Below are positions 28,261 through 40,172 of a stretch of DNA of 64,000 nucleotides, piece by piece; positions within the stretch are counted from its first letter, which is position 1; each line of letters begins with the position of its first letter. The DNA is from an uncultured Myxococcales bacterium (GTDB lineage: Bacteria > Myxococcota_A > UBA9042): assembly GCA_903842345.1 (NCBI GenBank), contig CAIMLR010000028.1:1-64000 (forward strand). The letters run 5' to 3'. The position numbers and the translations under genes are program-made. The notes under the pieces are model-generated. The model saw nothing but the letters and a program-made list of their open reading frames with translations. It was not told the DNA's origin and did no database searches.

Positions 28261-29961
28261 ATGCGTCCCTGCAAGCTCGTACGCGTGAGCACTGGCAACA
28301 GCGAACAGGAAATCCTGCTGGCTGACATCACGACTATCGGCCGTCAACCGACCAATACGCTGCAAATCGTCGATCGCCTGGTGTCCAAGGAACACGCCGT
28401 CATTCAGCGTCGCCCGGGCGGCGCCACGTACATGCTGTCCGATCTCGACAGCCGCAACGGCACGTACTGCAACGATCGGCTCGTCGAAAATACCCTGGCC
28501 TTGCGCCATGGCGACGTCGTGCGCATCGGCAGCACGAGCTGGCGCTTCCTTGCGCCGGACGATATGCCGCCGCCGCCACCGCCGCCGCCGCAGCGTCCCG
28601 CCACGGGACCGATGGGTGGCGGAGCGCTGCCGCCGCCGCCTCCGGGCTATCCCGCCGCCGTGGACGACCTGCCGATGGAGGAGATGGGCGCCGCGAGCAT
28701 CCACGCCACGATGCGCGTCGACCTCGCCGCGGATTTCATGCGCGCTGACCTCGTGCTCGACGAGCGCGTGCTGCGCGCCGACTACGAGAAGCTGCGGCTC
28801 GCCTACACGCTCTCGCGCGACCTGCACGCCGCGACGGACGTCGACACGCTGCTCGACATCTTGCTGAAGCGGATCTTCGAGTGGCTGCAGATCGACCGCG
28901 GCGTCGTCCTGCTGGTGGACGACAAGAAGCACGGCGATCCGGCTGACCAGCTGGTGCAGGCGGCGATGCGCATTCGCCCCGGCGCGCCGATTGATCCGGA
29001 AGAAAAAGAAGTCAAAGTCCCGCGGTCGATCATCAATCAGGTGCTGCTGAAGCGGGAGGCGGTGCTGTCAACGGATGCGCGGCTGGACGCGCGCTTTGGC
29101 AACGCGCAATCCGTGGTGCTGCAGGGCATCAAGTCGTCGATGACGGTGCCGCTGCTGACCCAGGACCGTACGCTGGGCATTTTGCACGTGGATTCCCTCA
29201 TCAGTTCGGGTCTGTACACGGAAAAGGACCTGGCGGTGCTTGTCGCCGTGTCGCGCCAGGCGTCGATTTCAATCGACAACGTGCTGCTGCAACGCCGCGT
29301 GATGGAAGAGGCGGCGCTGCGGTCGTCGCTCTCGCGGATGCTGTCGCCGAACCTCGTGGACCGGATCGTCGCGGGCGATTTGGCGATTGAAAAAGGCGGC
29401 GCGACCAAGCGCGTGACCGTCATGTTCGCGGATATTCGCGGGTTCACGGCGCTGACGGAGCGGCTCGCGCCGGCGGACATGGTTGCGCTGATGAACGAGT
29501 ACTTTGAACGCGTGTCCAACATCATTTTTGCCCACGATGGCACGCTGGACAAGTACATCGGCGATGCGGTGATGGCGCTCTGGGGCGCGCCGCTGGGTAC
29601 GGAAGACGATGAAGTGCTCGCGGTCAAAGCGGCGTATGAAATGCAGCTGGCGGTGCGTGAGTTCAACCGCGAACGCGTCGCTGCGGGCCATGAGCCGATT
29701 GGCGTCGGCATCGGCATCGCGACGGCGCAGGTCATCGCGGGCTACGTCGGCTCGTCGCGGACGATGAGCTACACGGTGTTCGGTCGCGGCGTCAACCTGG
29801 CGGCGCGACTGTGCTCGGCGGCCAAGGCGGGTGAAGTCGTGATGGCGCCGTCGACGTATGAGACGGTGCAGGACCTCGTCGTGGCCGACGAGATGGATGA
29901 AATGCGGCTGAAGGGCATGGCCGATCCCGTCCGCCCGTGGCGCTTGCGGCGAATGAAGTAA
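28261..29961 (+). CDS. FHA-GAF class III adenylate/guanylate cyclase
   Basis: This 566-residue cytoplasmic protein should make a cyclic nucleotide. An FHA domain (residues 1-95, with TTIGRQP, RLVSKEHAVI and DSRNGTY) would bind phosphothreonine. A Pro-rich linker (102-138) precedes a GAF domain (about 175-350). The catalytic domain (about 380-560) has metal aspartates D391 in FADIRGF and D435 in IGDAVMALWG, and VNLAARL contributes the transition-state Asn/Arg. It is thus apparently active. The FHA domain links it to Ser/Thr kinases, of which two are encoded in this window. ATP versus GTP specificity was not resolved. Confidence 0.88.
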   Translation: MRPCKLVRVSTGNSEQEILLADITTIGRQPTNTLQIVDRLVSKEHAVIQRRPGGATYMLSDLDSRNGTYCNDRLVENTLALRHGDVVRIGSTSWRFLAPDDMPPPPPPPPQRPATGPMGGGALPPPPPGYPAAVDDLPMEEMGAASIHATMRVDLAADFMRADLVLDERVLRADYEKLRLAYTLSRDLHAATDVDTLLDILLKRIFEWLQIDRGVVLLVDDKKHGDPADQLVQAAMRIRPGAPIDPEEKEVKVPRSIINQVLLKREAVLSTDARLDARFGNAQSVVLQGIKSSMTVPLLTQDRTLGILHVDSLISSGLYTEKDLAVLVAVSRQASISIDNVLLQRRVMEEAALRSSLSRMLSPNLVDRIVAGDLAIEKGGATKRVTVMFADIRGFTALTERLAPADMVALMNEYFERVSNIIFAHDGTLDKYIGDAVMALWGAPLGTEDDEVLAVKAAYEMQLAVREFNRERVAAGHEPIGVGIGIATAQVIAGYVGSSRTMSYTVFGRGVNLAARLCSAAKAGEVVMAPSTYETVQDLVVADEMDEMRLKGMADPVRPWRLRRMK

Positions 29962-30260: not shown

Positions 30261-32093
30261 CTACTCAGGCGCAACCTTCACGCACCGGAAACCCACGCCC
30301 GGACGCGCCGCGCCATCCGCGAGGAGCCGCCGCGCGTTCGCGCGCAGCCACGCGGGGCCATCGGCAAAACTGCCGCCGCGCACGACAAACGGCGGACCAG
30401 CGGGGCTTTCGGGCTCCGGCCTCGTCCATTCCGCGACGTTGCCAGCCAAATCGTGGATCCCTTCTGGCGTGTCCCCCAGCGGGAACAGCGCCACGAGCCC
30501 CGGCATCTGCATGCCGCAGCCACATTGCGCCGCCTCCGTGCATTTCTTCACCAGGTCCAGCACGTCGCCGCTTGGCGTAAACCGGGCATGTTCGCAATCT
30601 GGCGGCGCGTTGCCCCACGGGTAGGCGCGCTCCTGGGCCACGCACGTCTCATCGTCGCCCGCACAGGATCCGCGCGCCGCCCGCTCCCACTGCGCCTCGG
30701 TCGGCAGGTCCCAGTTGGCGCCCAGCCACTTCTGGCAATACCCCCGCGCATCTGCCCACGACACGTAGTTCAGCGGACGCTTGGCCAGCACCGGCCACGT
30801 GTGCGCGGTCGGCTGTTCGTCGGAGTAGAACGGGCAGACCGACGCCAGAGCGCACGCGCGCCACTCCTGCACCATCACTTCAGAGCGCTGGATCCAGAAA
30901 CGGGGCAGCGCGACTTTGCGTGCGGGCAGCGCGCCGTCGCACACGGAATCGGTCGTCGGATCGCAGCCCATCCAGAAGGTGGCGGGCGTGACCTCGACGG
31001 GCAACGCGCAATCCATGGGGCAGAGCGCCGCCGTCTCGTCCAAGCCGCAGGTGCCGTTGCCACACGAGGATCGAACGCAGCGGACGTGGGCGCCCAGATC
31101 GTTGTCGGCAATGGTGATGCTGCCGGTGTTGAAGTCGATGACCCAATGCGTGTAGACCGGGTCGGTCGGGAAGTTGCTCGCCTGCACGAGCGCGCCGCCG
31201 GTGAGCCCAGCGGACGGCGCCGTCGCGAAGTACGAGTGGCCGCGGTCCATCAGGCTGGACAACTCGCGGATGTTGCTCAAGTGCCAGCCGCCGTCGCCGT
31301 CGCTGTTCAAGTGCTGGCACCACCCAAAGGCCTTGAGCGGCGTGTAATCGTCCACCGCATCGCCGAGGATCCATTCAAGCCGCGTCAGCCGATCGACGAC
31401 TGCGTTGGCGGTCTCCTGGACAAAACGCGGCGAAGGCGGCGGCACAGGCGGCGCATCGCTGCGGACACAGCGCACCCGGTGGGCGTTGCTGCGCGGTTCC
31501 GGTTGCGTCAGGCCGTTGTCGAAGGCGATCGGCCACGCCGCGCCGCCGACCTTCGCGGGCACAAAGAACGGGCTCGTCGTTGCGCTCCAAAAGACGTCGC
31601 CGGGCGTGGCGTCCAGCGGCGGATCGATGGACGGATTGCTGACCTCAAAATCGACGATCGACTGCAGTTCCGTGAATGTCGGCATCCGCCAATCTGCCCA
31701 TCCGCCGAGATGGAGCGCGTCGCAGTGCACCTGCGCGGCCTGCCATGGCAACGGTTCGGGCGCCGCGTGGGCTTGCCACGTCAGGTGCGTCACCAGGTCG
31801 GCAACCGTGCCATCGCCGCGATCGACCAGCTGCTCTGGCTTGAGTGGCAAGATGCCCCACACCGGCGAGTCCGGGGCACAGGCTTTGCGGGGCACGCCGT
31901 CCACGTCGACTTGTAGCGTTTGCCAGCCTGGGTCCGGGCAGACCACCGGCGTCGGCGCATCGGGCACATCGGCGACAAGCGCGTCAACCGGCGCGTCTTC
32001 CACGTCAGCGGCGCGGCCAAAATCGTCCGGCTGCGGCAACGTCCGGCACGCGAGAGCCGCGCCCAGCACAGCGAACAGAAGCTTGCGGCTCAT
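30261..32093 (-). CDS. Lipoprotein with two DUF1566 domains and an FGE-sulfatase-like domain
   Basis: The 610-residue protein has a lipoprotein-like signal ending ALAC. Two DUF1566 (Lcl C-terminal) modules follow at about 90-215 (GGWADWRMPTFTELQ, ending HRVRCVR) and 225-365 (ending GAHVRCVR). A CGNGTC...CPMDC loop is next, then an FGE-sulfatase/SUMF1 domain at about 388-605 (TFWMGCD, PLNYVSWADARGYCQKW, DLPTEAQWERAARG, GNVAEWTR, GVGFRC). DUF1566 and FGE domains share the C-type lectin fold. The redox cysteine pair of true formylglycine enzymes is not seen, so binding rather than catalysis is inferred. The start overlaps the upstream paralogue by four bases; it is the last gene of the kinase operon. 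Confidence 0.8.
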   Translation of the reverse strand: MSRKLLFAVLGAALACRTLPQPDDFGRAADVEDAPVDALVADVPDAPTPVVCPDPGWQTLQVDVDGVPRKACAPDSPVWGILPLKPEQLVDRGDGTVADLVTHLTWQAHAAPEPLPWQAAQVHCDALHLGGWADWRMPTFTELQSIVDFEVSNPSIDPPLDATPGDVFWSATTSPFFVPAKVGGAAWPIAFDNGLTQPEPRSNAHRVRCVRSDAPPVPPPSPRFVQETANAVVDRLTRLEWILGDAVDDYTPLKAFGWCQHLNSDGDGGWHLSNIRELSSLMDRGHSYFATAPSAGLTGGALVQASNFPTDPVYTHWVIDFNTGSITIADNDLGAHVRCVRSSCGNGTCGLDETAALCPMDCALPVEVTPATFWMGCDPTTDSVCDGALPARKVALPRFWIQRSEVMVQEWRACALASVCPFYSDEQPTAHTWPVLAKRPLNYVSWADARGYCQKWLGANWDLPTEAQWERAARGSCAGDDETCVAQERAYPWGNAPPDCEHARFTPSGDVLDLVKKCTEAAQCGCGMQMPGLVALFPLGDTPEGIHDLAGNVAEWTRPEPESPAGPPFVVRGGSFADGPAWLRANARRLLADGAARPGVGFRCVKVAPE

Positions 32094-33226
32094 CGGATGC
32101 ACCGTACGCCCTGGAGGGTGGCGGAATTGCCCAGCGTGCCGGCTGGCGTGTTGTTCTGAAAGGACGCCATCCACGGCGTGTTCGGCAGCCCTTGCAGGAA
32201 GGTTGAAGTCCACTCGAATGCCTGCGTCGGCGCGAAACCGTCGGGCAAATTCACGCCGAGGCGATCCTCGACGAGCGCGTCCATCTCGCGGACGGTCGGG
32301 AGCCGCCAGCCAGCGCCCGGGGACTGCGCGTCATTTTGCAGACACGCGGCGTTGGCTTTGGACCAGTTCTTGGGCGCGGTCGCCGGGGTCGCCTGCCACG
32401 TCCGCCCCAGCGCGCGGTCCAGCAGCGTGGCGCCATTCGGGTTCGCGATGAAACGCTGCACCGTTTGGATTCCCGACGTCCCGCCGCGCACGCAGCGCAC
32501 TGCCCGTGGCGCCGCCATCAGGTCCTGTCCACCGTCGCCCCGTCCCCAATCGAGCGTGATGTCCTGGTCTGGCACCTCCGGCGAGCCGATCGCGGTGAGG
32601 TATTTCATGCGCAGCGGATCCCAGTCGAGGTGCGCCGCTGAGTTTGCCGGTTGCTGCTTGGTGTAGTCGATGAGCGAGCGAAGCTCCGCCCGGGTCGGCA
32701 GGCGCCAGTCGGCAAAGCCACCCCAAATCTGACTGGGGCAAGCCTGCATCGCTGTGGCGAAATTCATGTCAAACAGCGATTTTTGCGACCACATGAGGCC
32801 AGTCCGCGTGTCGGTCACGGTCTCCTCGTCCCAGGTGAAATCGCTGGCGCTGCGGCTGACGTCGAGCGGCATCCAAGTGGGAAAATTTGCCACGCAGACG
32901 TCCCCGCCCGCGCCGGGCGTGCGGTGCACACACGCGTATCCGGCGCTGCAGCCGTCGGCGAAACCGGGATGCGCGCATGCGCCGGCCAAGTGCGGAAACA
33001 GGCCCGAGCAGTCGCCCGGACAGGTCGCGATGGTCTCGTCCTCGTCGCAGGTATGGTTGCCGCAGAGGCTGGGCGCTACGTCCGCGCTGTCGGCCACGTC
33101 CGGCGCTACGTCCGCCACATCGGCGGCAGCCGCGGTGTCGTCAGGCCAGCCAAAACCGTCACGACCAGGCAGCTCGCGGCACGCGATCGCCAACAGGAGC
33201 GCCAAGCTTGCCGCCAACTGCTTCAT
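32090..33226 (-). CDS. Lipoprotein with two DUF1566 domains
   Basis: The 378-residue paralogue of the next gene shares its layout: a signal ending AIAC, an ACRELPGRDGFG start like the ACRTLPQPDDFG of the partner, an Asp/Ala linker, a CGNHTC...CPGDC loop, then two DUF1566 modules. These run about 135-260 (LMWSQKSLFDMNFATA, GGFADWRLPTRAELRSLID) and 262-378 (GWRLPTVREMDALVE, LQGVRCIR). It lacks the FGE domain. The fold is C-type-lectin-like, so a surface-exposed ligand-binding role is inferred. Both ends overlap neighbours by four bases, showing tight translational coupling. Confidence 0.78.
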   Translation of the reverse strand: MKQLAASLALLLAIACRELPGRDGFGWPDDTAAAADVADVAPDVADSADVAPSLCGNHTCDEDETIATCPGDCSGLFPHLAGACAHPGFADGCSAGYACVHRTPGAGGDVCVANFPTWMPLDVSRSASDFTWDEETVTDTRTGLMWSQKSLFDMNFATAMQACPSQIWGGFADWRLPTRAELRSLIDYTKQQPANSAAHLDWDPLRMKYLTAIGSPEVPDQDITLDWGRGDGGQDLMAAPRAVRCVRGGTSGIQTVQRFIANPNGATLLDRALGRTWQATPATAPKNWSKANAACLQNDAQSPGAGWRLPTVREMDALVEDRLGVNLPDGFAPTQAFEWTSTFLQGLPNTPWMASFQNNTPAGTLGNSATLQGVRCIR

Positions 33227-34563
33227 GGCCCTCGCCGGAATTGCGCGACTTCCGCGTCCGTCACGCCCGCTTGCTCCAGCCACCGGTAGATCTGCCGGCG
33301 ATCGCGGTTGTAATGCGCGGCGACCTTGGCGATGTTGCCGTAGTGCCGCTGCAGCAGCCGCCGCAGCACGGCCGCGTCCGGCGTGAGCGCCAACTGCCCA
33401 ACCGGATGCCCTGAACGCCCCGTCGGTCCCGTCGCTTGCAGCAGCCAGCCGGGCAGGTCGTCGCGCGCCAGCGGTCGCGGACCCGCCTTGGGGGCCAGCG
33501 CCTGCAGGACCGTCGCCAACTCGCGCAGGTTCTCCGGCCAGCCATAGTGGAGCAGCGCTTCCAGGGCCTCCGGCGTCAGGACCTGCGCCCAGCGCTGGCC
33601 ATTGTCCGCCGACAGTGGCGCGACGACGTCGGCGCACTCCAGCAAGTCGCTTCGGCGTTCAGCCAGCGCCGGCACGGCCACGACATGGCACCGCAAACGC
33701 GCCAGCAGATCGCGCCGGAACTTGCCTTGCCCCGCCAGCGCCTCCAGATCCGCGTTGGTCGTCGCGACGATCCGCGTGCGCGACACGATCTCCTGCGGCG
33801 CGCCCACCGGCCGGTAGCGCCCCGACTCCAGGAAGCGCAACAGCTTGGCCTGCAGCGCGAGAGGTAGCTCAGCGATCTCATCCAGCACGAGCGTCCCCTC
33901 GGCCGCTTCGTCCAGCAGGCCAGAGCTGCCGGGCGTGCCGATCACGCCAAAGAACTCCGCCTCAAAGGCGCTCTCCGACAGCGTCGGCGCGCCGACAAAG
34001 ACCAGCGGCCCCGGACGCCCCGATCGCGCGTGCAGCTCCCGGACCACGAATTCCTTGCCCACGCCCGTCGGTCCCAGCAGCAGCACCGGCGCGATGCCGT
34101 CGGCCGCGTGCTGAATGTCCGCGCGCAACTGCCGCGCTCTGCCGGAGCGTCCCGGGATGCACTGGGTCGGATGCGCGTATTCCGCCGCGCCGACGAGATC
34201 GCCTTCAACAATCGCCAGCGAGGAGCCAAACCGGATGATGCCATCGTGCCCCAGCGTGACGTTGGCAACGCGCTGCGCGCCGCGCCACGTGCCGTTCTTG
34301 CTCCCCAGGTCGCGCAGGTCGAGCACATCCGCGCGCGGTCCCGGGCGCAGTTCCAGATGGCGACGCGAAAGCATAGGATCGCCGATGTCGTGGGCCTCCA
34401 CCATCTCCGTCGCGCGCCCCAACACGACGCCGCGCGGGCCAATCGGCACAATGCGACCTTGCCAGTGGCGATCCGGGCTGCTCAGCACGTGGAGCTGCCA
34501 GCAGATCTCAGGCGCCTTGGCTGCCCACAGGGTTTCCGCCGCGGTCGGCGTTGTCGATTCCAT
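33223..34563 (-). CDS. FHA-AAA+ regulator with Fis-type HTH, lacking the GAFTGA loop
   Basis: The 446-residue protein combines an FHA domain (about 20-125; LGRATE, MLSRRHLE, GSKNGTW), a sigma-54-type AAA+ domain and a C-terminal Fis-like helix-turn-helix (about 395-440; NIAKVAAHYNRDRRQIYRWL). Walker A GPTGVGK is at 164-170, Walker B LVLDEI at 225-230 and the arginine-finger region is FRRDLLARL. Between the Walker motifs, where NtrC-type proteins have GAFTGA, this protein reads FFGVIGTPGSSGLLDEA and is about ten residues shorter. It therefore probably cannot remodel sigma-54 polymerase and may act as a repressor or signalling ATPase. GAGAGG precedes the chosen ATG. Confidence 0.85.
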   Translation of the reverse strand: MESTTPTAAETLWAAKAPEICWQLHVLSSPDRHWQGRIVPIGPRGVVLGRATEMVEAHDIGDPMLSRRHLELRPGPRADVLDLRDLGSKNGTWRGAQRVANVTLGHDGIIRFGSSLAIVEGDLVGAAEYAHPTQCIPGRSGRARQLRADIQHAADGIAPVLLLGPTGVGKEFVVRELHARSGRPGPLVFVGAPTLSESAFEAEFFGVIGTPGSSGLLDEAAEGTLVLDEIAELPLALQAKLLRFLESGRYRPVGAPQEIVSRTRIVATTNADLEALAGQGKFRRDLLARLRCHVVAVPALAERRSDLLECADVVAPLSADNGQRWAQVLTPEALEALLHYGWPENLRELATVLQALAPKAGPRPLARDDLPGWLLQATGPTGRSGHPVGQLALTPDAAVLRRLLQRHYGNIAKVAAHYNRDRRQIYRWLEQAGVTDAEVAQFRRGP

Positions 34564-34574
34564 GGCCATTCCTC

Positions 34575-35483
34575 TCAGAACCGGTGGGTCAGCATCACGC
34601 TGCCCGGGCCGGCGGTGACGGTCGTCTGCCCGCGCGTTTCCCGCACAAGCAGCCAAATGCCCGTGATTTCAGTCGCCAGAAACGCAATTCCCAGGACGCC
34701 CGCGCCGGTCAGACGGTGGTTGATTGAAAGTTGCCGGTCCAGCGCTTCCGGATAGCTGACGCGGCTCAAGTCGTACCGGCCATCGGGCAGGTGCAGCAAA
34801 TCGAGTTGACGTTGATCAGCCGTCGCGTTCACGGTCAGCCAGATGCCGGTCGCAGCGGCAGCGGCGCCAGTCGCCACGAGAATCCAACCGGCAGCACGCA
34901 GCCCCGTCGTTTCGTCGGGCGTGGCGACGGCGGGCACAGGCAACGGTGGTAACGGTGCAGCGGTCGATGACGCGATGGGCGTGGCGGGCGCGGGTAGGGC
35001 GACGGGCGGCGATGCCTCCACGGCGACGGGGGGAACCGCACTGGCCAGCGGAGCGACGGGCGCAGGAGCCGCAGCTGCCGTCAGCGCCAACGCGTCGCGC
35101 AGTTCCAGGAGGGCGGTCTCCGCCTTCTTGCGCAGCGGATGGTGGAGCGGCGCGCGCGCGACGACCTCTTCGTACGCAGCAATCGCCTCGCGCAGCCGCC
35201 CGTCCGAACGCTCCGATTTGCCCACGCCGATCATGAACGCAAACTCGTCGGGTTCCACCTGCGCGGCGCGGCGGTAGAGCTCAGCCGCCGTGCGGTATTC
35301 CTGACGCAGGTAGAATTCCAGCGCGCGCTGGCCAATCGCCATCGACTCGTTGTGACGTTTGTCGGCCTTGATTCGCGGTCGCGCGGTCGCGTCGTGGGGC
35401 GCTGCCAGACCGCAAGCCAGCGCGAGGCACAGCAGCAGGCGCGCGGCAAGATTCTGTGGCGGTGGGCGATGCGTCAGCGGCAC
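34575..35483 (-). CDS. TPR protein with signal peptide and two membrane helices
   Basis: The 302-residue protein starts with a signal peptide (hydrophobic core about 14-30). A TPR region follows at about 45-130 (ALEFYLRQEYRTAAELYRRAAQVEPDEFAFMIG). A Pro/Ala/Val linker (135-195) and two membrane segments (about 200-220 and 255-275) complete it. This layout recurs downstream of Ser/Thr kinases in myxobacterial genomes. It overlaps the kinase gene by ten bases and ends 11 bases before the FHA-AAA+ gene. A role as periplasmic partner of the kinase is inferred from coupling; no catalytic residues are seen. Confidence 0.75.
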   Translation of the reverse strand: MPLTHRPPPQNLAARLLLCLALACGLAAPHDATARPRIKADKRHNESMAIGQRALEFYLRQEYRTAAELYRRAAQVEPDEFAFMIGVGKSERSDGRLREAIAAYEEVVARAPLHHPLRKKAETALLELRDALALTAAAAPAPVAPLASAVPPVAVEASPPVALPAPATPIASSTAAPLPPLPVPAVATPDETTGLRAAGWILVATGAAAAATGIWLTVNATADQRQLDLLHLPDGRYDLSRVSYPEALDRQLSINHRLTGAGVLGIAFLATEITGIWLLVRETRGQTTVTAGPGSVMLTHRF

Positions 35484-36937
35484 GGCTCATCCGGTGGCAA
35501 GACGGTGGCGGCGTCTCGGCGTTGCGGGCGTGGGTGCGACCGGGATCGCGGCGCGCGCGCGCCCCAACGACCGGGTGAAACTGCCGATGACACGAGGGGC
35601 ACCTCCACCGGCACGCGCGGCGGCTCCCCTTCGACTTCAGCAACCTGTTGCGACCCCGGCGGCGCAGGCGCGGCCGGCGGGGGCGTCTGGACGGGCACTG
35701 GTGCCTTGACGGCTGTGACGTGGGTTGGCGACCGCCGCGGAATTGGCGCGGGCGAGCGACGCGCCGCGAATGCGCCCGTGGCTGCGAGAACCACCGCCGC
35801 AGCGGCCATTGCCCAGCGGCGGGCTGTGCCGCGTTTTGGCGGCGCGCATGGCGCCTCCACGTATTCGGCGTAGTCCGCCGTCGTCGACTCCACGCGCTCC
35901 GCGGGCGTCGCGCCCGCACTCGCTTCCAGCGCAAGGCGCATCGCGCGGGCGTCGGCAAAGCGATCCGCAGGCGACTTGGCGAGCGCGCGCACGACAATCT
36001 CGGCAAAAGCCACGGAAACCGGCGTCTTCGCCACAGTCAGCAGATCGCGCGGCGGCGCGTGGACGTGATTGTACATGAGGGTCAGCGGGTTCGGATCGTC
36101 AAACGGCAGTTCACCCGCCACGCAGCGATAGAGCAGCACGCCCAGCGAGTACAGGTCGCTCCGGCCGTCCAGCGCCCCGCCCATGCACTGCTCGGGACTC
36201 ATGAAGCTCGGCGTTCCCATCACTTTGCCCGTCGCCGTCACGCGGTCCAGCAGGGTCGCCGGGTCATCCTCGCCCACGGACGTGTCGCGCACGTGCGCGA
36301 TCCCAAAATCGACGACGCGCACCACCGTGCCGCTCGCCTCGTGGCTCACCATCACGTTGCTCGGCTTCAGATCGCGGTGCACCAGCCCTTGCGCGTGCGC
36401 CTCCTCCAGGCTCAGCAGAACCTGGACACCGACGACCCTCGCCTCGGCCTCGGTCAGCGCCGATCCCGCTTCCGTCCGTTCGCGCAGCCATTGATGGAGC
36501 GAAATGCCGCGCAGCAGTTCCATCGCCAGGTACAGCGAACCATCCGCCGTGGGCCCGCGTCCCACCACGCGGACCGTGTGCGGGCTGCGCAGGCGCGCCA
36601 GGATGTCCGCCTCGCGATGGAAGCGGCGCACATCGTCCAGCCGGTCGGTTGGCGAGAGCATCTTCAGCGCCCGCGACTCACCGTTTTCCAAGTCCAGGGC
36701 GGCAAACACGGCGCCGTAGCCACCGCGCCCCAGCAACGTCTCCAGCCGGTAGCGGTGATCAATGATCGCGCCGGTTGTCCAAGGCAGCGGCTGCGATCGC
36801 AGCTGGACCGTCGCGCTCGCGTCCTGCGGACACACGGCGTGCATCGTCGTTTCGCCGCATTGCGGGCAAGTCCGCATCACATTGGGGCTGTCGTTGTCCA
36901 CTTGCTGTCTTCCCACTGACCCGGGCAACTCTGACAT
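35474..36937 (-). CDS. Membrane Ser/Thr protein kinase with N-terminal zinc ribbon
   Basis: The 487-residue kinase starts with a CPQCG...CPQD zinc-ribbon-like segment (24-39). The kinase domain (about 60-340) is intact: glycine loop GRGGYGAVF, K92, HRDLKPSN with D189, and DFG at 210-212. One membrane helix (374-392) leads to a Pro/Arg-rich outer tail of about 90 residues. It is the first gene of a five-gene overlapping operon. The FHA domain of the AAA+ protein two genes later is a natural phosphothreonine-binding partner. A 17-base palindrome lies about 109 bases upstream. The ATG lacks a strong ribosome binding site; GTG at codon 13 is an alternative. Confidence 0.88.
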   Translation of the reverse strand: MSELPGSVGRQQVDNDSPNVMRTCPQCGETTMHAVCPQDASATVQLRSQPLPWTTGAIIDHRYRLETLLGRGGYGAVFAALDLENGESRALKMLSPTDRLDDVRRFHREADILARLRSPHTVRVVGRGPTADGSLYLAMELLRGISLHQWLRERTEAGSALTEAEARVVGVQVLLSLEEAHAQGLVHRDLKPSNVMVSHEASGTVVRVVDFGIAHVRDTSVGEDDPATLLDRVTATGKVMGTPSFMSPEQCMGGALDGRSDLYSLGVLLYRCVAGELPFDDPNPLTLMYNHVHAPPRDLLTVAKTPVSVAFAEIVVRALAKSPADRFADARAMRLALEASAGATPAERVESTTADYAEYVEAPCAPPKRGTARRWAMAAAAVVLAATGAFAARRSPAPIPRRSPTHVTAVKAPVPVQTPPPAAPAPPGSQQVAEVEGEPPRVPVEVPLVSSAVSPGRWGARAPRSRSHPRPQRRDAATVLPPDEPCR

Positions 36938-37045
36938 GTCTGGCGCGCACCGGCAATTGTGAAAACACTGACTTTGGCGGGCGAACTGGCGGGATCACGG
37001 CTGCGCCCGAGCGCGACAAGGAGCACGCCCCCTCACGCAGCGGTT

Positions 37046-37062
37046 CGAGACATGTTGTCTCG
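37046..37062. promoter_or_regulatory. Palindrome upstream of the kinase operon
   Basis: CGAGACA-TGT-TGTCTCG is a perfect inverted repeat with 7-bp arms, located 109 bases before the kinase start in the only upstream gap of the operon. It is a good candidate operator. Confidence 0.4.
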
Positions 37063-37141
37063 CCACTGGATCGCCCTGTCCTGAAGTGTGACATTTGTGC
37101 GAGTTGGGCCAGCCGCGCCGGATCCCGCAGGCAACGGGCGT

Positions 37142-39181
37142 TCAGGGCAACTTTACGTCGCCCGCGCTCTGGGTCAGCGCCGTCAAGAGGAAGGTCGGAT
37201 ACATGCCGGCAAGCTTGGGCTCGTTGAAGATCGCGAAGTGATCGCGGTTCGCCCACTGCGTCACTACCGCCGTGACGTCAAAGCCGTTGGCGTGGCGATT
37301 GCCGGCCACCGGACTCGCCACCAGCTCTGACGTGCCGAGCTGCAGCGCCTCGTCCAGGTGCACCGACGGCGCGAGAATATCCAGGCCCAGCGACGCAGCC
37401 AGCGCCTCAGCGGTCAGGTGCGGCGTGTCCTGATCGAGCAGCCCGGCGGTCAGCAGCACGTCGGGCGGGCGCACTCCCGCCGGCCGCTCCCAGGTCTTGT
37501 TGGCATAGGCCAGCGGATCGGTGATGTCCGCCATCATCTGCACCAGCGAAACGACGGGATGGAATTCCGACAGTTCGCCGTCGTCCAGCGACAGCAAGCC
37601 GGTCAGCATCTTGGGGAAATCGACGGGGAAGATGCGCTCCACGACGGTCAGCGACAGGCCCGCGCCCGCGCCCGAGAGCACAAAAGCGCGGATGTTGGGC
37701 TCCACGCCCGCCGCCAAAGCGCCCGAGAGGCCGCCCTGACTGTGGCCGATAAAGCCGATGTTGTCGGTCGCGAACGCCATACCGCCGCCATTGGGACCGA
37801 TGCCGACCGGCACGTCCAGCTTGCCCTCGCGCAGCAACCGCGTCAGAAAAACGGTGTCCAGCGCCGATTGGCGGAAACCGGACAGGCCGGCGGTAATGTT
37901 GAAGAAATTGAACGTGTCGATGTCCAGGGCATCCGTCGTCAGCGTCACCGGCGCACAGCGCGTGCCGTGCATCGGCTGGTCGATGCTCACCACCGCCAGG
38001 CCTTGCTGCGCCAGCAGCGTCGCGATCTTGAATTTGCCGCCGTCGACGTCGCTCAGCCAATCGCCGCCGGTGCCGTGCGCGGACTCGACGACCAGCACTT
38101 TGCCGCCAATCATCAGCGGCTGCTTCGGCAATACCAGCGAAATCCGGATGTCTTCGGTGCGCTGGACCGTCGGCGAACCATCGGCCGCGAGCTGAAAACC
38201 GCCCTCGCCTTGAGTCGTATACGGGCAAGTGCCCTGTTGGAAATTCGGCGCGCGGTAGTGCGCGGACGCCAGCACAAAGTCAGGATCCTTGGTGTCCAGG
38301 CGATCAAAGCCAAACGCCGGCTCGGTCGCCGCGCTCGTCCGCACCCATGCTGCCATTTTCTCAAGCTCGCCAGTCGGATTGCCGGTCGTGAATACGGTCG
38401 CCGCGGCGATGTCCTTGGGCGCAATCGCGATCTTGCGCGCGTCCATCGCCTGGAACAGCGGCTCCAGCGCCGCCGTCCACTTGGGATCCGCGTTGACCCC
38501 GACGCCGCTCGTGAGGTGGAAGCGCGCGTCGATCGCGGCTGCCAACGCCGCCGGACGGCCCAGCGGCTTGCCCGCCTTGTCCAGGAACCCGCGCCGCAGC
38601 ACAAACGCGTACGTCGTATTCGGCAGCAGCGGTCGGCCCCAAATCGGCTGCGCCATCATCAGGTTCGCCGCCAGATACACGCTGCGCTGCGGGCCGGAAA
38701 GCTGCGTCGTCAGCGGGATCAGCGTGCCGTACTCCGGGCTCGCCGGCGTCACGTTCATCAGGAACAGCTTGTCCTGGGTCGGCTGTGCGGTCGGCGGGCC
38801 AAAAGCCGCCGGATCCAGCGGCTGGTCAAATTGCACGTAGATCGTCGGCTGGATGCTCCACCCGTGAAGGTGCGTACCGGCGTAGGTCAGGTAACCCGTG
38901 AGGATGTCGGGCGGATCGCCCTCGCGCGGCGCAGGAAACCCCGACAGGTCGAGCGCGCCGTCCGCGGCCATACGCGTGTTGGTCGGAAACGGCGCGGCGT
39001 GCCAATCGCCTCCAGTCAGTTCATAGCGGGCCGTCGCACCCGTCGCCTGGCCTTCCCACGGATCGCGGTCTGGGCCAGTGTTTGGGACGACAATCCCATC
39101 TGCGGGCGCGGCTGTCGACGTATCGCAGCCTGCGAGCGCCAGGGCCAGGAGGAGCACGGGCAACGCAAGCAGGCGAATCAT
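37142..39181 (-). CDS. Alpha/beta-hydrolase lipoprotein
   Basis: The 679-residue protein has a lipobox LAGC (C19). The N-terminal part (about 40-330) resembles the Ig-like start of large extracellular lipases (YVQFDQPLDPAAFG). The C-terminal part is an alpha/beta hydrolase: nucleophile elbow GHSQG with S481, oxyanion region preceding it (VVESAHGTGGDW), and a late DHFAIF segment that likely supplies the histidine. It should hydrolyse esters or lipids at the cell surface. Its length and signal resemble virulence-factor-type lipases. GAGG lies five bases before the ATG. It ends about 200 bases upstream of the kinase operon and follows deoC by seven bases. Confidence 0.75.
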   Translation of the reverse strand: MIRLLALPVLLLALALAGCDTSTAAPADGIVVPNTGPDRDPWEGQATGATARYELTGGDWHAAPFPTNTRMAADGALDLSGFPAPREGDPPDILTGYLTYAGTHLHGWSIQPTIYVQFDQPLDPAAFGPPTAQPTQDKLFLMNVTPASPEYGTLIPLTTQLSGPQRSVYLAANLMMAQPIWGRPLLPNTTYAFVLRRGFLDKAGKPLGRPAALAAAIDARFHLTSGVGVNADPKWTAALEPLFQAMDARKIAIAPKDIAAATVFTTGNPTGELEKMAAWVRTSAATEPAFGFDRLDTKDPDFVLASAHYRAPNFQQGTCPYTTQGEGGFQLAADGSPTVQRTEDIRISLVLPKQPLMIGGKVLVVESAHGTGGDWLSDVDGGKFKIATLLAQQGLAVVSIDQPMHGTRCAPVTLTTDALDIDTFNFFNITAGLSGFRQSALDTVFLTRLLREGKLDVPVGIGPNGGGMAFATDNIGFIGHSQGGLSGALAAGVEPNIRAFVLSGAGAGLSLTVVERIFPVDFPKMLTGLLSLDDGELSEFHPVVSLVQMMADITDPLAYANKTWERPAGVRPPDVLLTAGLLDQDTPHLTAEALAASLGLDILAPSVHLDEALQLGTSELVASPVAGNRHANGFDVTAVVTQWANRDHFAIFNEPKLAGMYPTFLLTALTQSAGDVKLP

Positions 39182-39188
39182 CGCGACC

Positions 39189-40172
39189 TCAATAGCCGCC
39201 AATGCGGCGCACGTTCTTGGTATCGGGCGTCTTGGACGGCGTGCCGCGGACAATCGCCACGGACGCCGATGCGCCGATGCGGGTCGCGCCGGCCTGGATC
39301 ATCCGGTCGGCGTCCTCGGTCGTACGCACGCCGCCGGAAGCCTTGACCTCCACGCCTTCGCCGACGATTTCCTTCATCAGGGCAACGTCTTCCGCCGTCG
39401 CGCCACCCGGGCCAAAGCCCGTGGACGTCTTGACGAACGCGGCGCCCGCGATCTTGGACAGCACGCACGCGATGATCTTTTCGTCGCGGTTCAACTCGCC
39501 GGTCTCCAGGATGACCTTGACCTTGCGCGCGCCCGCGGCCTGCACGACCGCCTGCACGTCCTGCTGCACAAGCGCGTAATCCTTGGATTTCAGCGCGCCG
39601 ATGTTGAGCACCATGTCGATTTCTTCAGCGCCGTCGCGAATCGCTTCCTTCGTCTCAAAAGCTTTGGCAGCGGGCGTCGTGGCGCCCAGCGGAAAGCCGA
39701 CGACAGCGACGACCGGCACGCCCGAGCCGCGCAATTCCCGTGCGCAATAACTGACGTTTGCGGCGTTGACGCACACGGACGCGAATTTGTACTGGCGGGC
39801 TTCCTCGCACAGCTTCTTCAGTTCGTCGCGCGTCACGTTGGCTTTGAGCAGCGTGTGATCGATGAAGTGCGCCAGATCCGCGCGCACCACGCCATCCACG
39901 ACGCCCGGCGAGGCCGACACGCGATTGGCGCCCATGTCCATGAGTTTCTTGACGTCGTCCGGGCGGCGCGAAATGGACCAGCCACAGCCCGTGCATTCGC
40001 CTTTGCCCGCTTTGCACGGCTGGCCGGGATGCGGCGCGTGGTCATGCGTGTGCGAATGCGCGTGCGTTGGCGCGGCGGGAGCGGGCGTACCCGAGGCCTG
40101 ACGGGTCATTTCCTGCCGCACGCGGTCGGCGATGGTCTGGACCAGTTGTTCAAACTGCGGATCGTGGGCCAT
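39189..40172 (-). CDS. deoC: Deoxyribose-phosphate aldolase with His/Cys-rich N-terminal extension
   Basis: DeoC cleaves 2-deoxyribose 5-phosphate to glyceraldehyde 3-phosphate and acetaldehyde. Of the 327 residues, the last 220 are a complete class I aldolase: D186 in EIDMVLN, Schiff-base K248 in VKTSTGFG and K277 in VKASGGVRT. The first 100 residues are unusual: a helix, then [13 protein letters not shown], then C-x6-C-x2-C ([13 protein letters not shown]) and [22 protein letters not shown]. Such a segment suggests metal binding or partner targeting. Ordinary DeoC is 220-260 residues. GGAGAG precedes the ATG. It is followed by the hydrolase gene after seven bases. Confidence 0.9.

Follow-up and report, generated by a model that had tools for sequence, protein, structure and literature searches.

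A five-gene operon of a Ser/Thr kinase, a TPR protein, an FHA–AAA+ protein and two Lcl_C lipoproteins, probably one envelope-to-gene signalling system, in an uncultured Myxococcales bacterium

The window analyzed here is a stretch of 64,000 nucleotides from an uncultured Myxococcales bacterium (GTDB lineage Bacteria; Myxococcota_A; UBA9042; GenBank assembly GCA_903842345.1, contig CAIMLR010000028.1, positions 1 to 64,000), and the subject of this report is an operon of five minus-strand genes that runs from 36937 to 30261 within it. From 5' to 3', the operon encodes a Ser/Thr kinase, a tetratricopeptide repeat (TPR) protein, a protein that joins a forkhead-associated (FHA) domain to an AAA+ core and a helix-turn-helix (HTH), and two putative lipoproteins. 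The genes are as follows.

35474..36937, minus strand: Ser/Thr kinase gene, 487 aa; Pkinase match at 3.2e-39, kinase domain at residues 63-328
34575..35483, minus strand: TPR protein gene; weak Pfam TPR matches
33223..34569, minus strand, alternative ATG at 34563: FHA–AAA+–Fis-like HTH gene, assigned from Pfam, alignments and a tree
32090..33226, minus strand: putative lipoprotein 1 gene, 378 aa; two Lcl_C stretches (PF07603, 1.4e-28)
30261..32093, minus strand: putative lipoprotein 2 gene, 610 aa; two Lcl_C domains (PF07603, 2.6e-37) and a formylglycine-generating enzyme (FGE)-sulfatase domain (PF03781, 4e-25)

All five genes have a third-position GC content of 0.77–0.84 in the called frame. 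The kinase and TPR genes overlap by 10 bases, and the FHA gene overlaps the gene of lipoprotein 1, as does this gene that of lipoprotein 2, by 4 bases each. The TPR and FHA genes are separated by 5 bases, or by 11 if the second ATG (34563) is the start of the FHA gene. An initial annotation of the window had described five coupled genes that overlap by 4-10 bases or lie 11 bases apart; this has been confirmed, with 11 being the second-ATG figure and 5 the figure otherwise. The products it listed (kinase, TPR protein, FHA–AAA+–HTH protein and a pair of DUF1566/FGE proteins) were likewise borne out by Pfam, where DUF1566 is now Lcl_C and the FGE domain is present in lipoprotein 2 only. A consensus scan found no promoter-like sites inside the operon, and the count of terminator-like sites in it was at chance level.

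The gene set has been compared across 22 genomes of the window's family, and profile searches were extended to 52 genomes of its class. Five further loci, in four other genomes of two genera, combine kinase, TPR and FHA genes with Lcl_C lipoprotein genes next to them. The locus in genome G006 consists of the first four genes in the window order (kinase, TPR, FHA, Lcl), at which point the contig stops. The same four genes are present in G002 together with a second, divergent Lcl gene. G003 has two loci, one ordered kinase-TPR-FHA-Lcl and the other kinase-TPR-Lcl/FGE-FHA, and in G001 the kinase, TPR and FHA genes lie beside a divergent Lcl/FGE gene. A sixth locus, in G004, has kinase, TPR and Lcl/FGE genes without an FHA gene. 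At L131 of G013 the open reading frames were read as apparent remnants of a kinase and a TPR gene, behind which come two Lcl lipoprotein genes ordered as in the window; an FHA gene is missing. Conservation of gene order in relatives, which the initial annotation had proposed as a check, holds for the first four genes in G006; the set is rearranged elsewhere, and among the 22 family genomes the complete five-gene order is present only in the window.

In a tree computed without the columns of the GAFTGA loop, the six linked FHA proteins form a single clade (support 98/90), which splits into the window and G006 proteins (100/99) and the remaining four (100/100). The linked kinases (complete copies) also form a single clade (100/99). 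In the FHA profile search of the class genomes, the six clade members scored 681–749 bits, the protein ranked after them scored 464, and no members of the clade were found in the remaining genomes. A GTDB scan, from which the window's own genome records were possibly left out, found no relative above 40% identity. Because of this score gap and the lack of a closer relative in the GTDB scan, the system seems, at least among the genomes examined, to be confined to two genera within a single family. Chance clustering of the five genes is ruled out by the recurrence of the set, the matching FHA and kinase clades and the clear score gap. Since close relatives carry the same gene set, the five genes are probably one real envelope-to-gene signalling system; the earlier suggestion of one signalling or recognition system finds support in the recurrence of the set, with rearrangements, and in the FHA and kinase clades.

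The FHA–AAA+–HTH protein matches the Pfam models for FHA (3.5e-8), Sigma54_activat (PF00158, 8.7e-35) and the AAA lid, with a weak match for HTH. The initial annotation had these domains right and missed that the protein is a relative of sigma-54 activators without the GAFTGA motif. Its AAA+ core is of the Sigma54_activat family, as in bacterial enhancer-binding proteins (bEBPs). None of the six clade members, the window protein included, has the sigma-54-contacting GAFTGA loop of bEBPs, which is either replaced or deleted; its position in the window is as follows.

33919..33945, minus strand: L1/GAFTGA loop position, VIGTPGSSG in the window protein, located by alignment and by PDB alignments to PspF (2vii) and NtrX 5m7n

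When the protein is aligned to PspF (2vii), the VIGTPGSSG residues land in the L1 loop. The top PDB match is NtrX 5m7n, in which the aligned segment is likewise without GAFTGA. The family's other FHA activators mostly have GAFTGA, GAFSGA or near variants, and the sister clade of the linked FHA proteins retains GAFTGA. Among FHA activators of the family, the motif has also disappeared or changed on at least three other occasions (L072/L078, L049 and L053/L076). The phosphothreonine-binding FHA residues Arg52, Ser68, His71 and Asn92 are invariant in the linked FHA proteins (6/6), and the Fis-like HTH and its R(R/K)QxYRW helix are likewise conserved (6/6). The window and G006 copies have the full ATPase signature, with Walker A, Walker B and arginine fingers intact; in the four other copies Walker-B DE is changed to DG (Glu to Gly) and the sensor-I Asn is lost.

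Reports exist on bEBPs that lack GAFTGA and are active at sigma-70 promoters, namely NtrC of Caulobacter and Rhodobacter and VpsR of Vibrio (PMC10274813). Because the linked FHA proteins have lost GAFTGA and conserved FHA and HTH, and published bEBPs of this kind act at sigma-70 promoters, the simplest reading of the sequences is a phosphothreonine reader and DNA binder that would no longer engage sigma-54. The loss of the L1 loop from an AAA+ protein of the sigma-54-activator family with a conserved HTH is shared with NtrC (Caulobacter, Rhodobacter) and VpsR (PMC10274813) and with NtrX 5m7n. Unlike the NtrC/VpsR types, which depend on receiver domains, histidine kinases or c-di-GMP (PMC10274813), the window protein has an FHA domain as its input and is encoded next to a Ser/Thr kinase gene. 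In Myxococcus xanthus, enhancer-binding proteins that carry an FHA domain have been reported together with Ser/Thr kinases (Jelsbak, Givskov & Kaiser 2005, cited in PMC12288465). They resemble the window protein in combining FHA, a sigma-54-activator AAA+ core and a Fis-like HTH and in being encoded with Ser/Thr kinases; unlike them, the window clade is without GAFTGA and shares its operons with genes for TPR proteins and Lcl/FGE lipoproteins.

A conventional role for the FHA protein, as a sigma-54 activator that drives sigma-54 promoters and is phosphorylated by the kinase or docked on it as in the Myxococcus FHA-bEBPs, is very unlikely. Such a role would suit a member of the sigma-54-activator family whose ATPase signature is intact in the window and G006, whose genome encodes sigma-54 and whose sister clade keeps GAFTGA, but the motif is missing in 6/6 linked proteins and the Walker-B Glu is lost in 4/6. 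In addition, by-eye inspection without a formal test recognised no GG-N10-GC site upstream. Another reading, in which the AAA+ protein has ceased to regulate transcription and, docked on the phosphorylated kinase, serves as an FHA scaffold or ATPase in lipoprotein assembly or export, agrees with the decay of the motor residues in 4/6 copies beside invariant FHA residues. We regard it as quite unlikely, since the Fis-like HTH and its helix are kept in every copy and putative operator arrays, described below, lie upstream of related operons.

The window kinase has intact ALK, HRDLKPSN and DFG motifs, corresponding to the catalytic Lys, HRD and DFG of Hanks-type Ser/Thr kinases, and the catalytic motifs are intact in every complete linked copy. 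Pfam found no PASTA or other known extramembrane sensor domain of the PknB/Stk1 subgroup in the window kinase, and the PknB_PASTA model was far below cut-off. The C-terminal tail is Pro-rich and has no Pfam domain. An Ala-rich stretch at residues ~371-390, before the tail, resembles a weak transmembrane (TM) segment when the sequence is read and was unflagged by a 19-residue hydropathy scan at 1.5. The extreme C-terminus carries a conserved motif that, like the putative operator repeats below, goes beyond the initial annotation.

35489..35515, minus strand: conserved C-terminal kinase motif, DAATVLPPD in the window and DPxT[IV][LV]PP[DE] in relatives

The linked kinases terminate in this DPxTxLPPD-type motif (window sequence DAATVLPPDEPCR), to which the second copy in G003 adds APGGP. 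More broadly, C-termini of the hydrophobic–Pro–acidic type ([ILVFY]P[DEQK]) were found in 17/21 kinases with an adjacent TPR gene as against 3/15 others (p 5e-4, kinship ignored). The kinases that adjoin a TPR gene at L130, L136, L138-L141, L161, L255 and L258 have extreme C-termini such as DDDLSLPE, YIPD and FIPD. A pure ribosome-binding-site artefact is disfavoured by the mixed codons outside the Lcl-linked clade and by the conserved upstream DPxT, with a partial overlap remaining. The mixed codons argue for selection on the kinase tail at the protein level.

The window TPR protein is laid out as an N-terminal signal or TM segment, two TPRs, a Pro/Ala linker and two C-terminal hydrophobic segments, with hydropathy peaks at 12, 200 and 262. 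A single-sequence AlphaFold2 model has helices at 42-137 and low confidence in the remainder (mean predicted local distance difference test score, pLDDT, of 50). Contact between the kinase tail and the TPR domain is plausible if both are extracytoplasmic, as their sequences suggest. The same TPR family is paired with large Lcl_C or FGE proteins of up to ~1,800 aa at L126, L127, L128, L134, L142, L143, L155 and L162, and no kinase gene was recognised beside these pairs. The TPR–Lcl/FGE gene pair is widespread in the family and apparently undescribed.

In both putative lipoproteins a hydrophobic stretch precedes Cys16, and their mature N-termini are as follows.

33146..33181, minus strand: mature N-terminus of lipoprotein 1, CRELPGRDGFGW; its motif is specific to kinase-linked Lcl lipoproteins and close relatives
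32013..32048, minus strand: mature N-terminus of lipoprotein 2, CRTLPQPDDFGR

The motif CRx[LV]Px4FG follows the lipobox in most kinase-linked Lcl lipoproteins (two in the window, L061, L066, L067, L079 and L125) and in the unlinked relatives L132 and L146. It was not matched in L070, in the second L067 gene or in any unlinked, more distant Lcl/FGE protein. According to Pfam, both window lipoproteins carry the Lcl_C (DUF1566) domain of the Legionella Lcl family. They resemble Legionella Lcl as exported proteins with an Lcl_C domain, described as C-type-lectin-like (PMC11162425). Unlike Legionella Lcl, which has collagen-like repeats (PMC11162425), they have no collagen-like Gly-X-Y repeats in either sequence, have Lcl_C in tandem, are putative lipoproteins and are encoded in a regulatory operon. 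A PDB search with lipoprotein 1 gave no match, and a structure model of the Lcl_C domains had a mean pLDDT of 56.

The nearest solved chain to the FGE domain of lipoprotein 2 is SUMF2. In SUMF1 the RGGS…R region holds an active-site Cys pair, and SUMF2 is without this pair. No Cys was found in the region in lipoprotein 2 (RGGSFADGPAWLRANARR) or in its relatives (RGGSFLS...), so the FGE domain is probably non-catalytic; as the active-site cysteines are absent, a catalytic formylglycine-generating enzyme was rejected as unlikely. Lipoprotein 2 has by sequence the FGE fold of SUMF2 and GldK/PorK, which are of the non-catalytic FGE-sulfatase fold. Unlike in these proteins, the FGE domain follows a pair of Lcl_C domains within one putative lipoprotein, and no gliding or type IX secretion genes were recognised beside it. 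A diversity-generating retroelement target has been rejected, with the genome's two reverse transcriptases on other contigs and none near the operon.

The lipoproteins may also be cargo, that is, adhesins or enzymes whose expression is controlled by the regulator-kinase pair and which do no sensing. Legionella Lcl adheres to glycans through its Lcl_C domain (PMC11162425), the same TPR family forms pairs with Lcl/FGE genes elsewhere where a kinase gene was not identified beside them, and the position and domain content of the lipoproteins vary between copies. The shared mature N-terminus CRxLPx4FG, however, suggests a common partner, and the lipoproteins stay paired with one and the same kinase clade; we hold the cargo reading to be doubtful but deserving of serious weight.

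Upstream of the kinase gene lie the following features.

36938..37141, minus strand: upstream intergenic region of 204 bases, likely promoter; the only sizeable gap on the operon's upstream side
37087..37093, no strand assigned: one copy of TGTGACA (coding strand: TGTCACA), a sequence repeated upstream of related operons; p ~0.009 for the window alone
37046..37062, no strand assigned: 17-base palindrome CGAGACAtgtTGTCTCG in the upstream region

No promoter-like consensus was found in 36938..37141. L066, L067 and L070 have 3-4 copies of TGTGACA/TGTCACA within ~90–210 bases before the kinase (p 7e-7 to 4e-9), against 85 occurrences in the 1.53 Mb of loci examined. Where upstream sequence was available, one or more copies of TGTSACA were found at 7/9 GAFTGA-less loci vs 0/25 GAFTGA-type loci (p 7e-6, overstated since the sequences are related). 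In G001 a 44-base layout of TGTGACA-N10-TGTCACA, TGTGACATGTGACA, is present before the kinase operon and before a separate gene with a lipobox-like start, and an array in G002 precedes a small putative lipoprotein gene. In G004, where the clade FHA gene is absent, the repeats upstream of the kinase are absent too. The TGTGACA arrays upstream of unrelated putative lipoprotein genes, which are candidate members of the regulon, lie at L286 (G001:C23, ~36536-36617) and L287 (G002:C17, ~1160-1200). The palindrome GAGACA-N3-TGTCTC was dropped as an operator, GAGACA-N2-12-TGTCTC occurring twice in the genome and not above chance. A 27-base palindrome, TGTGACAGAACAACTTGTTCTGTCACA, has ~30 copies across contigs of G018 (L272 and ~30 other places) and is seemingly unrelated to kinase operons.

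The best reading of the operon is a lineage-restricted variant of myxobacterial kinase-to-FHA-activator signalling that would now control its own operon independently of sigma-54. We hold tentatively, at slightly less than even chances, that it is one envelope-to-gene unit in which the kinase acts on the FHA protein with a sigma-54-independent output. This builds on the observed gene set and its conservation, the intact kinase and FHA residues, the loop loss and the linked sequence motifs. The Lcl_C/FGE lipoproteins would be the exported sensing or binding parts, and an envelope signal bound by them (a presumed ligand), or a change in them, would start the cascade. The TPR protein, presumed to be in the envelope and probably touching the exported C-terminal tail of the kinase, would relay the signal to the kinase; this topology and contact are inferred. 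The membrane Ser/Thr kinase would then phosphorylate a cytoplasmic threonine, and the FHA domain of the AAA+-HTH protein would read the phosphothreonine, altering the control of the operon by the HTH protein; phosphorylation of and by these partners is likewise presumed. Because the GAFTGA loop is lost, this descendant of sigma-54 activators may regulate sigma-70-type promoters by DNA binding, with operator binding and the sign of regulation (activator or repressor) presumed as well. It would control its own operon and, in sister species, perhaps surface lipoprotein genes with TGTGACA/TGTCACA sites. A more specific version, in which the lectin-fold lipoproteins sense a ligand, the TPR protein reads the exported C-terminal peptide of the kinase (DPxTxLPPD or a related end of the [ILV]P[DE] type) and the FHA protein, once a sigma-54 activator, regulates surface lipoproteins through TGTGACA arrays without sigma-54, is unlikely to hold in full.

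Several points weigh against these proposals. The window has one TGTGACA, and paired sites are not in excess in its genome; because of this the operator argument rests on the sister species, to which the operator claim applies first, and the tie to the linked FHA protein is one that we infer. Another regulator could be the binder of TGTSACA. The motif and locus counts come from related sequences and are not independent. The last residues of the kinase C-terminal motif overlap the ribosome-binding region of the next gene. Both window lipoboxes are imperfect, with Ala at -3, whereas several relatives have canonical ones, which leaves the outer-surface placement given in the initial annotation a putative one, and the two low-confidence structure models (TPR protein, Lcl_C domains) added little.

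No description of a kinase–FHA–Lcl/FGE gene set was found in the open-access literature, in agreement with the initial annotation, which knew of no described system with exactly this content. Kinase–FHA-activator pairs and GAFTGA-less two-component activators are already known; the combination of FHA input, a lost sigma-54 loop and linked Lcl/FGE lipoproteins did not turn up in the open literature searched. An anti-phage kinase system was rejected, as PADLOC matched only the kinase fold and the AAA+ core and none of the other three genes. Myxobacteria-like genomes have many Ser/Thr kinases and FHA regulators, with inputs and outputs that are mostly unknown. Here, sensor candidates, a kinase, a reader and a candidate DNA site are present in one compact conserved unit, which makes an envelope-to-promoter chain testable. 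The clade also extends the NtrC/VpsR response-regulator cases to activators of the FHA type, in which the loop that contacts sigma-54 is gone and the FHA residues are fixed.

Two neighbours of the operon have been recorded. Upstream, a 703-aa open reading frame (37142-39253, minus strand) has a signal-like N-terminus and no Pfam match. On the other side, an FHA-GAF-adenylate/guanylate cyclase gene (28330-29961, plus strand) is convergent with the operon and encodes a second FHA protein ~300 bases away.

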